From Streptomyces lincolnensis (GTDB lineage Bacteria; Actinomycetota; Actinomycetes; Streptomycetales; Streptomycetaceae): DNA of 64,000 nucleotides. Under the pieces are notes generated by a model that saw nothing but the letters and a program-made list of their open reading frames with translations, ran no database searches and was not told where the DNA came from. The stretch spans positions 6,200,001-6,264,000 of the forward strand of contig NZ_CP016438.1 of assembly GCF_001685355.1 (NCBI RefSeq). The letters are read 5' to 3'. Each line of letters starts with the position of its first letter. Position 1 is the stretch's first letter. Of this stretch, positions 32,226 to 36,960 are shown piece after piece. Both the position numbers and the translations under genes were made by a program.

Positions 32226-32293
32226 ACCGTCAGAGTAGGCCGATGATCCGCCGGATCCCTGGATTGTCAGTGCTGCCTCGTACTGTCGGCGGC

Positions 32294-32686
32294 ATGGGAA
32301 TCGTGATGTTCGTCGATGAGACGACCAGCGGCGGCCGCACCGACGGCTGGGGCCTGGAGATCGCCGAGGAGCGGCTCGCCGTGCGCGAACTGATCCGCCG
32401 CCGGGTGTTCCAGGAGGTCGCGGAGTACAACGCGCGCACGCCGGGGGTCTTCCAGGGCCTGGTCCAGCCGGCCGACGCCGAGCGGGTGCTGAACGGCTAC
32501 GCGCTGCGTACACCCCGGCGGATAGACCCCGAGAAGCAGACCGAGCTGGCGCTCAGGGCCTTCGCGGGCAACGGCTTCCTGGTGCTGGTGGGGAACCGCC
32601 AGGTCACCGACCTCGACGAGGAGATCGACCTCGTGCTCGGCACCGAGGTCACCTTCCTGAAGCTCGTACCGCTGGTCGGGGGCTGA
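32294..32686 (+). CDS. Small putative ubiquitin-like (beta-grasp) protein ending in Gly-Gly
   Basis: A 130-residue protein. The ends look like a beta-grasp fold: an N-terminal hairpin (MFVDETTSGG, GWGLEI), a helix (ERLAVRELIRRRVFQEVAEYN), an insert of ~45 residues, and a final part reading FLVLVGNRQVTDLDEEIDL then GTEVTFLKLVPLVGG-stop. That ending matches, by eye, both ubiquitin (a VxGxQLxD turn, an ST/TEV strand, then Gly-Gly at the very end) and the MoaD/ThiS ending. It stops one base before the DUF4132 gene starts, so the two are co-translated. No E1, E2 or JAB gene is in the window. I chose ATG 32294; ATG 32306 is equally possible. Function is inference from fold-like features only. Confidence 0.6.
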   Translation: MGIVMFVDETTSGGRTDGWGLEIAEERLAVRELIRRRVFQEVAEYNARTPGVFQGLVQPADAERVLNGYALRTPRRIDPEKQTELALRAFAGNGFLVLVGNRQVTDLDEEIDLVLGTEVTFLKLVPLVGG

Positions 32687-32687
32687 C

Positions 32688-35153
32688 ATGCCGTACATCC
32701 AGACGTACAAGGAGCTGATCGCGCAGCGCGTCGCCGAGGGCGACACGGGTGCGCTCGCCGTCGACATGCTGAAGGCCGCGGCCGTCAACAACGGCGACTG
32801 GACCGGCCGCTGGACCCAGGTCCTCGGCCGGCTGCGCGAACTGCCCGCGGACGCGCGCAAGGCGCTCGCCGACGCCCTCGTGGAGCAGTACCACGCGGAC
32901 CGGGCCGGACCGGACGCCCGCGGCCATGCCCTGACCCTGCTGGGCATCGTGGCCCGGGACCTGCCCGAGGACTTCCTCTCCACCGAGCGGCTGAAGAAGC
33001 TCGACGAGCTGTCACGGCAGCACTCCTTCTGGCACGGCTCGTCCTACGAGGCCCTCGCCGAGGCCGAGCTGGCGACCGGCCGCGCCCTCGCGCCCGCCGT
33101 GGTGGCCGTCATCCGCCGCTCCGCCATGGACACCTACAGCCCGGCGTCCCTGACCCGGCTCGCGGCGAGGCTCACCACCCCCGCCCTCAACGTCGGCGAG
33201 GAATGGGCCGAGCAAGCCCTACGAGACACCGCCGACCCCGACTGGCAGGCCCTGCTCGCCCACACCACCACCGCCACCGCGGCCAGGCCGACGCCCCAGT
33301 GGAACCACCGCGCGGCCGCCCTGATCGACGCCCTCGGCGCCGACCGAATCCGCGAGACGATCCTGCCCTGGCTCGCCCTCGTCGGCCGCCCCCGCACCTT
33401 CCCGCTGGACCGCGCCGCCCACCAGCCGGACCACAACCACGCCTACGACCCCTACAACGCCAACGCCCTGCGCGGACTCACCTGGATCCTCGCCCTCCTG
33501 CCGCCGCACCCCGACACCACGCGCGCGCTCGGCGCCCTCGTCGACACCTCACTGAAGAAGGTCGCCGGCCTGGGCCCACGCAACCCCAAGGTCGCCAACG
33601 CGGCCGTCAACGCCCTCGCCCGCCTCGACGGCGAGAGCGCCCTCGCCGAACTGGCCCGCCTCGCCACTCGCGTCACCTACAAGGGCACGCTCAAGCCGCT
33701 CAACACCGCCCTGGACACCCGCGCCGAGGCGATGGGCCTCAGCCGCGAGGAGATCGAGGAACTGGCCGTCCCGGCCTACGGCCTGACGGAGATCGGCCGC
33801 GCCGAGCACCGCCTGGGTGACGTCACGGCGCTGATCGAGATCCACCGCACCAGAGCCCTGCTGACCTGGCGCAACGCCGCGGGCAAGCCGGTGAAGACGG
33901 TCCCGGCGTCCGTCCGGCGCGACCACGCCGACGACCTCAAGGACCTCAAGGCCGCTGCCAAGGACATCGACAGGATGCTCTCCGCCCAGAGCGAGCGCCT
34001 GGACCGCCAGTTCCTGGCCCGCCGCACCTGGCCGTACGCCGCCTGGCGCGAGCGCTACCTCGACCACCCCCTCGTGGGCACCCTGGCCCGCCGCCTGCTC
34101 TGGACGGTCGACGGCACGACGGTCGGACACGCCGACGGCGCCCTGCGCACCCTGACCGACGACCCCGTGGAGGACGGGCGGGAGGTGCGCCTGTGGCACC
34201 CGGTCGGTCACGACCCCGCCGAGATCGTCGCCTGGCGCGACTGGCTGGAGCGCCACGCGATCACCCAGCCGTTCAAACAGGCCCACCGCGAGGTCTACCT
34301 GCTAACGGACGCCGAACGCACCACGGCCACCTACTCCAACCGCTTCGCGGCCCACTTCCTGCGCCAGCACCAGTTCCACTCCCTGGCCGCCGTCCGGGGC
34401 TGGCACAACAAACTCCGCCTGTCCGTCGACGACGAGGCCCCGCCGGCCGTCCGCGAACTCCCGCAGTGGGGACTGCGCGCCGAGTACTGGATCGAGGGCG
34501 ACGGCGGCGAGAACTACGAGGACATCACCGAATCCGGCAGCTTCCTCCGCCTGCGCACCGACCAGGTCCGCTTCTACCCGATCGACGCCCCCGAGAACTC
34601 CGCCCACTGCTGCGGCGGCGAGTACCACATGTGGCTCCGCGACGGCCGGGACCCGGTCGACCCCCTCCCCCTGGACTCCGTCCCGCCCCTGGTCCTGTCC
34701 GAAGTCCTCCGCGACGTCGACCTCTTCGTCGGCGTGGCCAGCGTCGGCAACGACCCCACCTGGCAGGACGGCGGCCCGAGCGGCCGCTTCCGCGAGTACT
34801 GGACGTCGTACGGCTTCGGCGAACTCACCCAGAGCGCCGAGACCCGCCGCGTCCTGCTCGAACGCCTGATCCCGAGGCTGGCCATAGCCGACCGCTGCAC
34901 CCTCGAAGGCCGCTTCCTCCACGTCAAGGGCGAACGCCACACCTACAAGATCCACCTCGGCTCCGGCAACATCCTCATGACCCCCAACGACCAGTACCTC
35001 TGCATCGTCCCCAAGTCCGCCCCGGGCAGCGCCCCGCAGACCGGCTACCTCCCCTACGAGGGCGACCGCATGCTGGCGGTCATCCTCAGCAAGGCGATGC
35101 TGCTGGCGGACGACACGAGGATCACGGACCCGACGATCCTGAGCCAGCTGTGA
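32688..35153 (+). CDS. DUF4132 domain-containing protein
   Basis: An 821-residue cytoplasmic protein. The N-terminal two thirds are helical and rich in Leu/Ala/Arg (HEAT-like appearance). The C-terminal ~330 residues show the DUF4132 pattern: QPFKQAHREVYLLTDAE, YSNRFAAHFLRQHQF, RFYPID and TLEGRFLHVKGERHTYKIHL then GSGNILM. E. coli YehI/MolR-type proteins belong here; the biochemical activity is unknown. Translation is probably coupled to the small Gly-Gly-ending protein one base upstream, so the two likely function together. A truncated nucleotidyltransferase-like remnant follows directly after the stop. Confidence 0.88.
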   Translation: MPYIQTYKELIAQRVAEGDTGALAVDMLKAAAVNNGDWTGRWTQVLGRLRELPADARKALADALVEQYHADRAGPDARGHALTLLGIVARDLPEDFLSTERLKKLDELSRQHSFWHGSSYEALAEAELATGRALAPAVVAVIRRSAMDTYSPASLTRLAARLTTPALNVGEEWAEQALRDTADPDWQALLAHTTTATAARPTPQWNHRAAALIDALGADRIRETILPWLALVGRPRTFPLDRAAHQPDHNHAYDPYNANALRGLTWILALLPPHPDTTRALGALVDTSLKKVAGLGPRNPKVANAAVNALARLDGESALAELARLATRVTYKGTLKPLNTALDTRAEAMGLSREEIEELAVPAYGLTEIGRAEHRLGDVTALIEIHRTRALLTWRNAAGKPVKTVPASVRRDHADDLKDLKAAAKDIDRMLSAQSERLDRQFLARRTWPYAAWRERYLDHPLVGTLARRLLWTVDGTTVGHADGALRTLTDDPVEDGREVRLWHPVGHDPAEIVAWRDWLERHAITQPFKQAHREVYLLTDAERTTATYSNRFAAHFLRQHQFHSLAAVRGWHNKLRLSVDDEAPPAVRELPQWGLRAEYWIEGDGGENYEDITESGSFLRLRTDQVRFYPIDAPENSAHCCGGEYHMWLRDGRDPVDPLPLDSVPPLVLSEVLRDVDLFVGVASVGNDPTWQDGGPSGRFREYWTSYGFGELTQSAETRRVLLERLIPRLAIADRCTLEGRFLHVKGERHTYKIHLGSGNILMTPNDQYLCIVPKSAPGSAPQTGYLPYEGDRMLAVILSKAMLLADDTRITDPTILSQL

Positions 35154-35172: not shown

Positions 35173-35652
35173 ATGAGCTCCGTCGGCCCGGCGCCGGGGA
35201 TTCTCCCGCGCCTTGCGGACGGCCTACGGGGCGAGAAATGGGAGGTCGCCGTGGTCGACGTCGGACCGCTCGAAGCGCGGTTGCTCGACACTGATCCCGT
35301 CGGTGACGATGCCTGCGTGGTCGATCTCGAAGACCTGGTGGTCATGAAGGTGCGCGCCCTCGGCGATCGTGGTCTGCCGCGGGACGTGATCGACGTACAT
35401 GCCGCCTGCCGGCACTACTCCGTGATCGAGCTCGAACAGCTGGGGCTGCGCGACGAGGCGGAGTTCGACCTGGCCGAGCTGCGGGAGCGGCTGGAGAGCG
35501 TCGTATGGGTGAGTGACGAGGAGTTCGCGGCGTACGGGCTGGGGCAGGAGGAGATCGTGGAGTTGCGGCGGTGGGCGTTGGACTGGGAGTCCGATCTCGG
35601 GCTGCGGCTCGCTGAGGAGTATGACGATCCGGAAGACGACGACACCGAGTAG
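35173..35652 (+). pseudogene. N-terminally truncated AbiEii/AbiGii-type nucleotidyltransferase remnant
   Basis: The segment DLEDLVVMKVRALGDRGLPR then DVIDVHAACRHYSVIELEQL resembles the C-terminal part of actinobacterial AbiEii/AbiGii-type nucleotidyltransferase-like proteins, as far as I recall them. The N-terminal half that would carry the catalytic GS-x-D motif is absent: the frame begins (TTG 35167 or ATG 35173) only ~15 bases after the DUF4132 stop and has no ribosome-binding site. It therefore looks like a remnant joined to the end of the DUF4132 gene by a deletion or insertion. It could still be translated as a ~159-residue protein. Confidence 0.5.
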
Positions 35653-35670: not shown

Positions 35671-36960
35671 TCAGACCCCGCGGTAACCGTCCCTCACGAC
35701 CTCCCGTGCCAGAGCCTTTCGGGCACCTGTCAGTTCGGTGGCGATGAGGTCGGCCCGTCCCGCGTCGGCCGTCACCGTGGCGGGCGCCGGTGGGCCGGTG
35801 AGGAGCAGTCGGCGGCGCAGGTGGGTCGGAGGGTGGGTGGAGTCGACGCTGTGGCCGCGGAGGGCGGCGGCGCGGCGTTGGCGGTCGTACTCGGAGGGTG
35901 GGATGGAGGTCATGTGGGCGGTGAGGGCCTCCCACAGGCCTTCGGAGTCGTCCGTGGAGGACTGGCCCGGGCGGCGGGTGCGGCGGCTGTTGGTCTCGCG
36001 GTGCAGGGTGGTGACGACCGAGTCGGTGACGAGGAGGCGGTCCATCAGGCCGACCGCGGCCTCGGTGGAACCGGCGCGAGCCGCCACCGCGTCGGCCAGG
36101 TACTCGCTGCGTTGTGACGCCCGCGCTGTCAGCAGGTCCAGCAGCATCAGCACGCCTTGGATCAGTGAACGAGGCACCAGGTAGACCAGGTTGACGAACA
36201 TCTCCAGGAGCGTCGGGTTAGGGGTCGGGGCGAGGAAGTAGTGCCACAGGGACAGTGACCGGTAGGCGGTGCCGACCACCAGGCCGTGGCGGGTGTCCCC
36301 GTTGGTGAAGTGGCCCAGTTCGTGGCCCAGGAGCGCGATGCGCTGCTGCGGGGTGAGGACCTCCCAGAGTGGGATCCCGAGGGTCAGGAGGCGGCGGCCG
36401 AGGCCGTAGTGCGTCACGCTCGCGTTGACCTCGGTGTCGACGACGATCGTGTCCACGCCCTTGGTGCCCAGTGTCCGCGCGATCTCGTCGACGAGCCCGT
36501 ACAGCTCGGGCGCTTCCGTGCGCGTCAGGACGCGGGCGTCCTTGGGCAGCCGGTTCAGCCTCGGGCGCAGGGGCCAGGCCAGGGCGAGCAGCAGAATGCC
36601 AAGGCCCTTGGCGACAGCCCCTGAGCCGGCGATCAGGATCCAGAGTCCGCTCGCGACGAGGGTGGCGGTCACGCCGTGTACCGCGAGCGCGATGGCGTAC
36701 GCGAGAATGCCAGCGGTGTCCCGGCCGCCACGCCGCTGCTCACCCTCGGCGCTCAGCTCGGCCAGCAACTGCTCGCCGTACCGCTGCGCCAGCTCGTGGC
36801 GCAGGCTCTCCAGCCTGCTCCGCTTCTCGTCCGACTCCGCCCGCTCCGGATCGACGTTCCAGTCGCAGGCCGCACACCATCTGGTGAAACGCGCGTCTGT
36901 ACGGATCTCGGTCCCGCACTGCGGGCACGGCTGGAGCGTTTCCTCCCCTACGGCACGCAT
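35671..36960 (-). CDS. M48-family membrane metallopeptidase with zinc ribbon
   Basis: A 429-residue protein. The N-terminus has a zinc ribbon (CPQCGTE and, 20 residues on, WCAAC), followed by a helical segment, two membrane helices (~95-145), the M48 peptidase domain with the zinc site LLGHELGHFTNGD, and further hydrophobic segments (LVPRSLIQGVLMLLDLLTA). HtpX/Ste24-like M48 enzymes degrade or process membrane proteins. The frame is open to 37143, but ATG 36960 precedes the zinc ribbon and has GGGAGAG eight bases upstream. The zinc-ribbon fusion is common in Streptomyces members. Confidence 0.9.
   Translation of the reverse strand: MRAVGEETLQPCPQCGTEIRTDARFTRWCAACDWNVDPERAESDEKRSRLESLRHELAQRYGEQLLAELSAEGEQRRGGRDTAGILAYAIALAVHGVTATLVASGLWILIAGSGAVAKGLGILLLALAWPLRPRLNRLPKDARVLTRTEAPELYGLVDEIARTLGTKGVDTIVVDTEVNASVTHYGLGRRLLTLGIPLWEVLTPQQRIALLGHELGHFTNGDTRHGLVVGTAYRSLSLWHYFLAPTPNPTLLEMFVNLVYLVPRSLIQGVLMLLDLLTARASQRSEYLADAVAARAGSTEAAVGLMDRLLVTDSVVTTLHRETNSRRTRRPGQSSTDDSEGLWEALTAHMTSIPPSEYDRQRRAAALRGHSVDSTHPPTHLRRRLLLTGPPAPATVTADAGRADLIATELTGARKALAREVVRDGYRGV

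Follow-up and report, generated by a model that had tools for sequence, protein, structure and literature searches.

Operons for bacterial ubiquitin-like conjugation include the Bil operons and the Cap2 operons of cyclic oligonucleotide-based antiphage signaling systems (CBASS). In the latter, the terminal glycine or alanine of cGAS is conserved only where Cap2 is present, as stated in a part of PMC10097602. For DNA damage, passages of PMC6789036 describe that PafBC works via RecA-NDp promoters, and parts of PMC5087735 report such a promoter together with UV induction for SCO6735 of Streptomyces coelicolor. In Deinococcus radiodurans, the small protein DRA0165 (SEP068184) is reportedly upregulated by irradiation and oxidation, and its published structure prediction resembles 5MPO and SAMP1 (3PO0; PMC9650054); a likeness to MoaD has already been reported for it. 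Here, we describe a gene pair of Streptomyces lincolnensis that lies in a 64,000-nucleotide stretch ("the window"; positions 6,200,001 to 6,264,000 of the 10.3 Mb genome, our genome G000) and encodes a small putative ubiquitin-like protein, UbL, followed by a large protein with DUF4132 and DUF7737 domains. Our results suggest that this small protein and its DUF7737-type partner, placed behind a damage-type promoter motif, form a ubiquitin-like system of the DNA-damage response that has so far been overlooked.

As an earlier note on this DNA had read from the letters, the small gene encodes 130 residues with Gly-Gly directly before the stop (...FLKLVPLVGG, then TGA), and the ATG of the DUF4132 gene follows after a single base (Table 1). 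A longer mechanical open reading frame (ORF) opens at 32243, which is an unlikely start because the promoter motif falls within its extra part and because homologues share the ATG at 32294. The AlphaFold2 (AF2) model of UbL is a beta-grasp fold with a mean predicted local distance difference test (pLDDT) score of 83.3 in which a helix (residues 30-48) follows an N-terminal hairpin (strands 2-10 and 19-23), just as the note had proposed, and the tail (residues 126-130) is flexible (pLDDT below 50). The known structure that it resembles most is that of the human molybdopterin synthase small subunit (MoaD-type), with ubiquitin also among the best matches, and the 50 VIA-align matches listed are, judged from their titles, molybdopterin synthase, ubiquitin, UBL, or U11 small nuclear ribonucleoprotein chains, the last of which we take to be UBL-bearing. 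The suspected likeness to ubiquitin and MoaD thus withstood comparison of the predicted structure, and the modeled core and flexible terminal Gly-Gly are what a ubiquitin fold would entail; we predict with high confidence that UbL is a beta-grasp protein with a functional Gly-Gly tail. Searches by sequence were silent: UbL had no Pfam match up to E 1, the ThiS/MoaD profile PF02597 was matched neither by UbL nor by five distant homologues at the same limit, a sequence search against solved structures gave no match and a profile search only chance-level rows (best E 0.52), and an hhalign comparison with a profile built from no more than 10 ThiS/CysO-type sequences was not significant (E 0.15-0.25). 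An NCBIfam match to Hsp33 was dismissed as chance (E 0.095; 11.8 bits vs a cut-off of 244).

The tail is conserved in a way that follows the partner gene. Our 165 homologue rows represent 123 distinct proteins, of which 118 could be scored after leaving out three decayed copies (L008, L082, and L210), a probably false hit (L109), and L106, whose match stopped early; the small proteins of Deinococcus, Novosphingobium, and Bacteroides treated below are not counted among them. All 108 homologues with a DUF4132 gene within 1.3 kb end in Gly-Gly, another 3 keep Gly-Gly with no DUF4132 gene in the fetched stretch, and the remaining 7 have neither. Two of these three come from short stretches and have DUF7737 around 2.6 kb (G050) or 14 kb (G457) away, and the third (L081, Nocardiopsis) belongs to a genome without a DUF7737 match. 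The terminal Gly-Gly on which the note's idea hinged is therefore kept wherever the partner is adjacent, and the exceptions are eight partner-less homologues of a single branch, f25 (L098-L103, L105, and L106), with no DUF4132 gene of the clustered kind in their fetched stretches and no DUF7737 match in any of their genomes. A ninth f25 genome (G154) retains both Gly-Gly and DUF7737, and DUF7737 was present in 4 of the 5 genomes with Gly-Gly homologues that were checked alongside this branch, the exception being the same Nocardiopsis genome. Since the 111 distinct Gly-Gly-ending homologues use all four glycine codons at both sites (Gly129: GGT 63, GGG 25, GGC 16, GGA 7; Gly130: GGC 87, GGA 16, GGG 5, GGT 3), it is the residues and not the DNA that are kept. 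Elsewhere in the tail, F121, L124, and L127 are invariant and K123 and V125 nearly so (26 rows). Scorable homologues range from 69 to 141 residues due to an insert of variable length; the 69-residue one (L205, genome G543) retains the N-terminal hairpin, a helix stub, and the Gly-Gly tail and still adjoins DUF4132.

UbL belongs to the accessory genes: it occurs in 9 of 61 relatives, in 38 of the 150 genomes from the genus, and in 19 of 396 from the phylum, and the pair resides on plasmids in some cases. From a scan of named genomes, we retained 80 of the 104 related loci; 64 of these belong to Streptomyces and the others to Kitasatospora, Actinacidiphila, Actinomadura, Micromonospora, Nonomuraea, and Nocardiopsis. 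No UbL relatives were found in phages at E 0.01 and none were confirmed in viral contigs using a single peptide pattern as query. As far as neighborhoods resting partly on a simple home-made gene caller can tell, the partner lies downstream of UbL in most Streptomyces, Micromonospora, and Nonomuraea and upstream of it in Actinomadura and in part of the genomes from the window's own genus, so that the pair stays together across rearrangement. In the three decayed copies, a DUF4132 remnant overlaps or directly follows the UbL remnant.

The coupling to a DUF4132 protein, as the note had phrased it, is real but was drawn too broadly: Pairs were found with 108 of the 118 homologues as well as in Deinococcus and Novosphingobium, and the partner is specifically the subset of DUF4132 proteins with a C-terminal DUF7737. 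Among the 150 genomes of the genus, UbL occurs in 38, DUF4132 in 88, and DUF7737 in 40, with DUF7737 present in all 38 UbL genomes vs only 2 of the 112 others, and UbL in none of the 51 genomes that have DUF4132 without DUF7737. Of the two UbL-less cases, G518 has only a fragment (positions 66-96), and the match in G546 falls short of the cut-off. A Fisher test of this co-occurrence gives p 1.4e-33, a value that ignores relatedness and overstates the independent evidence. Within these 150 genomes, further DUF7737 genes without adjacent UbL exist (e.g., at 8.675 Mb in G000) and are, besides the two remnants, confined to UbL genomes, so that UbL may serve them in trans. This second DUF4132-DUF7737 gene of G000 (L177 5131-8185; 8.673-8.676 Mb) stands behind a 119-residue short gene, presumably YjbR-like, with its own RecA-NDp motif. 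The genomic evidence thus points, with high confidence, to UbL as a functional partner of DUF4132-DUF7737 proteins. The AF2 model of the large protein (pLDDT 87.3) had no Foldseek match below E 0.001, and among the VIA-align matches listed, only its N-terminal helical half was covered.

Beyond what the earlier note had contained, we found a cysteine in DUF7737 and a promoter motif. Cys772 is invariant in a 46-row alignment and is a cysteine in 121 of the 129 distinct DUF7737 domains that the fetched loci encode. The eight exceptions are four Actinomadura copies, Acetobacter, Bacteroides, and two fragments (L082 and L268). In Acetobacter, no UbL-like ORF was seen upstream of the DUF4132 gene, and on a Bacteroides finegoldii plasmid (L225 1419-1838), the UbL homologue ends in LSGRLW instead of Gly-Gly and adjoins a DUF5724-DUF4132-DUF7737 protein with alanine at the cysteine position; the degenerate DUF7737 of the UbL-less genome G546 also lacks the cysteine. 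Though the independent events are few, this is suggestive of co-loss of the partner's cysteine with UbL or its terminal glycines, and we have moderate confidence that the tail acts on or via Cys772. The DUF4132 genes of Acetobacter and Burkholderia are preceded by small genes that we considered and rejected, as none looks UbL-like by eye and the Burkholderia one matches a helix-turn-helix family. No relatives of the Bacteroides DUF4132 protein were found in phages or viral contigs.

Directly upstream of UbL lies an exact match to the RecA-NDp promoter, with TTGTCRGTGN8TANNNT being what we take to be its consensus; by this pattern, the gene would belong to a PafBC regulon. The exact motif occupies the corresponding position in 71 of the 98 stretches fetched (a set that includes the window's own site and a few genes twice). 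Of the 118 distinct homologues, 68 have an exact motif and 13 an approximate one, and 37 lack it, including all 12 homologues with the partner upstream. Across the 10.3 Mb genome, there are 35 such sites vs 1 for the reversed pattern. Of the 34 regions fetched (all but UbL's own), 32 could be assigned a downstream gene with our home-made caller, two of them far away. We ran 10 of these genes on Pfam, of which 9 function in repair or replication, an illustration and not a rate given that they had been picked by eye as likely repair genes: recA, uvrA, uvrB, ruvC, dnaX, and genes for an O6-methylguanine methyltransferase, a RecD2-type helicase, an AlkZ-like glycosylase, and a Helicase_C_2 helicase.

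More distant pairs tell a similar story. The DRA0165-DRA0166 genes of D. radiodurans and their counterparts in three Deinococcus relatives share the gene order, and all four small proteins end in LTALAGG; in Novosphingobium, the small protein ends in LTPLKGG and its gene overlaps the DUF4132-DUF7737 gene. According to parts of PMC8533742, DRA0165 qualifies by transcriptomics, chromatin immunoprecipitation sequencing, and a radiation/desiccation response motif (RDRM) at -83 (its Table 2), and tagged DRA0166 is induced by damage in a manner that requires IrrE and involves DdrO, on both of which the induction depends (a figure legend); contrary to this, PMC9650054 reports no RDRM for DRA0165. There is thus good reason to place the UbL pair in the DNA-damage response, in Streptomyces by its motif and in Deinococcus by literature support.

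Table 1. Features of the UbL locus, in window coordinates.
Feature	Position	Strand	Basis
RecA-NDp (PafBC-type DNA-damage) promoter motif, TTGTCAGTGCTGCCTCGTACTGT	32264..32286	+	Starts 30 bp 5' of the UbL ATG; exact consensus match
UbL gene, predicted ubiquitin-like (beta-grasp) protein, 130 residues	32294..32686	+	ORF; AF2 model; structural matches; homologues
Gly129-Gly130 codons GGG GGC, last ahead of TGA	32678..32683	+	Codon check; homologue conservation
DUF4132-DUF7737 protein gene, 821 residues, presumed co-transcribed with UbL	32688..35153	+	1-base gap; Pfam; AF2 model
N-terminal helical HEAT/ARM-like solenoid, residues 1-359	32688..33764	+	Helices in AF2 model; importin/PP2A/AP2-type solenoid matches confined to this part
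DUF4132 domain, residues 399-572	33882..34403	+	Pfam 1.8e-53
DUF7737 domain, residues 717-821, co-occurs with UbL	34836..35150	+	Pfam 1.3e-40
Cys772 codon (LCIVP), conserved DUF7737 cysteine, candidate Gly-Gly acceptor	35001..35003	+	121/129 distinct domains

We give about even odds to the explanation that UbL is a ubiquitin-like protein which DNA damage induces and whose Gly-Gly acts on, or by way of, DUF4132-DUF7737, possibly with conjugation; its computed support is the predicted fold, the conserved tail, the DUF7737 partnership, the promoter motif, and the conserved cysteine. UbL would be made as a free-standing beta-grasp protein with an already mature tail, and DNA damage would switch on both genes, in Streptomyces via the RecA-NDp/PafBC-type promoter. 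The tail would be needed for work with the partner; most likely, either a housekeeping E1 of the MoeZ/MoeB type or the partner itself would activate the terminal glycine, which would then be handed to Cys772. A target would be bound by the HEAT-like N-terminal half, with the result that UbL is attached to this target or switches the DUF4132 machine. Induction itself, activation, a thioester, target, and outcome are the steps that we infer. In a bolder form that we think doubtful, DUF4132-DUF7737 would be a single-protein ligase of a damage-induced system without own E1, E2, or E3 that takes the Gly-Gly tail onto Cys772 and passes it to a repair-related target, in Actinomycetota (under PafBC), Deinococcota (under DdrO), and some Pseudomonadota.

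Several observations weigh against the role of the cysteine, conjugation, or the wiring to damage. Four loci (L083, L085, L087, and L089; Actinomadura) have three tandem DUF4132-DUF7737 genes ahead of UbL, and the middle copy lacks the cysteine in all four while its two sister copies keep it, which shows that loss of the cysteine can occur although a Gly-Gly-ending UbL stays. These middle copies resemble a pseudo-enzyme. An initial search in PMC9380542 suggested that the PafBC motif of Mycobacterium smegmatis is not conserved in Streptomyces venezuelae. Finally, 157 proteins co-purified with DRA0165 in each of four schemes that tagged it N- or C-terminally (PMC9650054), so that a modifier needing a free C-terminus is not favored. 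The same result would suit a noncovalent regulatory subunit whose tail would dock in DUF7737 close to Cys772 and thereby turn the large protein on or off, as would the tight co-occurrence and joint decay of UbL and its partner, the small-large gene order, and the conserved tail residues around F121, L124, and L127, which look like a binding motif. This explanation seems rather unlikely to us, though the least so of the alternatives, because it is not obvious why docking should require a strictly terminal Gly-Gly on the flexible tail of a beta-grasp fold, and docking does not by itself predict the conserved cysteine.

Docking is also consistent with the lack of a dedicated E1 in the searched loci: A MoeZ-like ThiF query had no match in the window (tblastn, E 1) or in 176 fetched stretches, which vary widely in length (E 1e-3). 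The note's statement that the window holds no E1, E2, or JAB gene therefore stands for E1, and for E2 and JAB it extends to the 10 window neighbors scanned with Pfam, which, like 10 neighbors at Actinomadura and Micromonospora loci, included none of the three. ThiF proteins are found in all 150 genomes of the genus, so activation could occur in trans; extra ThiF copies as a sign of a dedicated E1 were rejected, as their number is the same with or without UbL. This supply of ThiF would equally serve a sulfur carrier like MoaD, ThiS, or CysO, with MoeZ making a thiocarboxylate on the tail and DUF4132-DUF7737 taking the sulfur via Cys772. The molybdopterin synthase match fits this, as do two YeeE/YedE genes and a thioredoxin gene beside the D. 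radiodurans pair and the mutual pull-down of DRA0165 and Trx1 (PMC9650054). We nonetheless consider it improbable, given that these neighbors are missing at the three other Deinococcus pairs, that the scanned Actinomadura and Micromonospora neighbors are not sulfur enzymes, and that a damage-type promoter would be unexpected for a sulfur-carrier operon on general knowledge. MoaE, ThiG, and CysM were absent from the same 20 neighbors in this non-exhaustive scan, DUF4132-DUF7737 being the conserved neighbor. The (near-)overlapping small-large operon, accessory distribution, and plasmid location could also recall a toxin-antitoxin pair with UbL as antidote, which is very improbable: D. radiodurans lacking DRA0165 is viable and more H2O2-resistant with unaffected DRA0166 expression (overexpression makes it less resistant; PMC9650054), DUF4132-DUF7737 paralogues without adjacent UbL exist, and PADLOC gave no match for UbL (best E 0.32).

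Beyond the pair, the window continues with a 159-residue ORF (35173-35652, +) without Pfam match at 1e-5 and an M48-family peptidase gene (35671-36960, -). Around 74 kb from the pair and outside the window, G000 has a cluster of DUF5691, SWIM, AAA_5 MoxR-type, DUF5682, and VWA_CoxE genes (6,153,654-6,162,047; L178 9155-17548) with a RecA-NDp motif ahead of the SWIM gene; DUF5682 is near-universal (146 of 150 genomes), so its presence cannot test a link to the UbL pair.

If our proposal is true, the DNA-damage responses of Deinococcus and of many actinomycetes, which have Pup besides, include a beta-grasp ubiquitin-like system whose cysteine-bearing partner differs from known E2 and RING enzymes. 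It would give DUF4132 and DUF7737, domains of unknown function, a concrete role, offer a reason why the published Deinococcus stress peptide resembles MoaD, and make exact predictions on the last two glycines, one cysteine, and a specific remnant after trypsin digestion.

DRA0165 is a member of the UbL family by gene order, C-terminus, and alignment, but DRA0166 differs from the window's partner in being longer (DUF5724-DUF4132-DUF7737). DRA0165 was published as Deinococcus-only in a main text without the words DUF4132 or ubiquitin (PMC9650054), and our literature search, which lay outside most subscription papers and all preprints, found no publication joining UbL to DUF4132 or naming a ubiquitin-like system here. 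The MolR/YehI-type WGR-DUF4132 proteins share the DUF4132 domain, but the only one that we scanned (L179 6517-10140) carries WGR and lacks DUF7737; in this genome (G185; L179 6439-10140), a RecA-NDp motif lies 5' of the WGR-DUF4132 (MolR-like) gene, which is divergent from a DUF4132-DUF7737 gene, and a passage of PMC8533742 brings up MolR in the context of the LexA regulon. Pup (prokaryotic ubiquitin-like protein) is likewise a small actinobacterial protein of a system tied to the PafBC damage response, but it is intrinsically disordered and ligated by PafA (parts of PMC8223512), and the folded beta-grasp model with its Gly-Gly end rules out that UbL is Pup, insofar as the prediction holds. 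MoaD, its human counterpart MOCS2A, and CysO share the beta-grasp and C-terminal Gly-Gly, from which UbL departs by the lack of a Pfam match or significant profile alignment, its variable-length insert, its DNA-damage promoter motif, and the absence of moa, thi, or cys partners among its scanned neighbors. Compared to the Bil operons and the Cap2 operons of CBASS with their cGAS/DncV-like nucleotidyltransferases (CD-NTases), UbL has no E1, E2, or JAB gene beside it in our limited search and DUF4132-DUF7737 as partner, yet it shares with cGAS-Cap2 that its terminal glycine is conserved where the partner is present.

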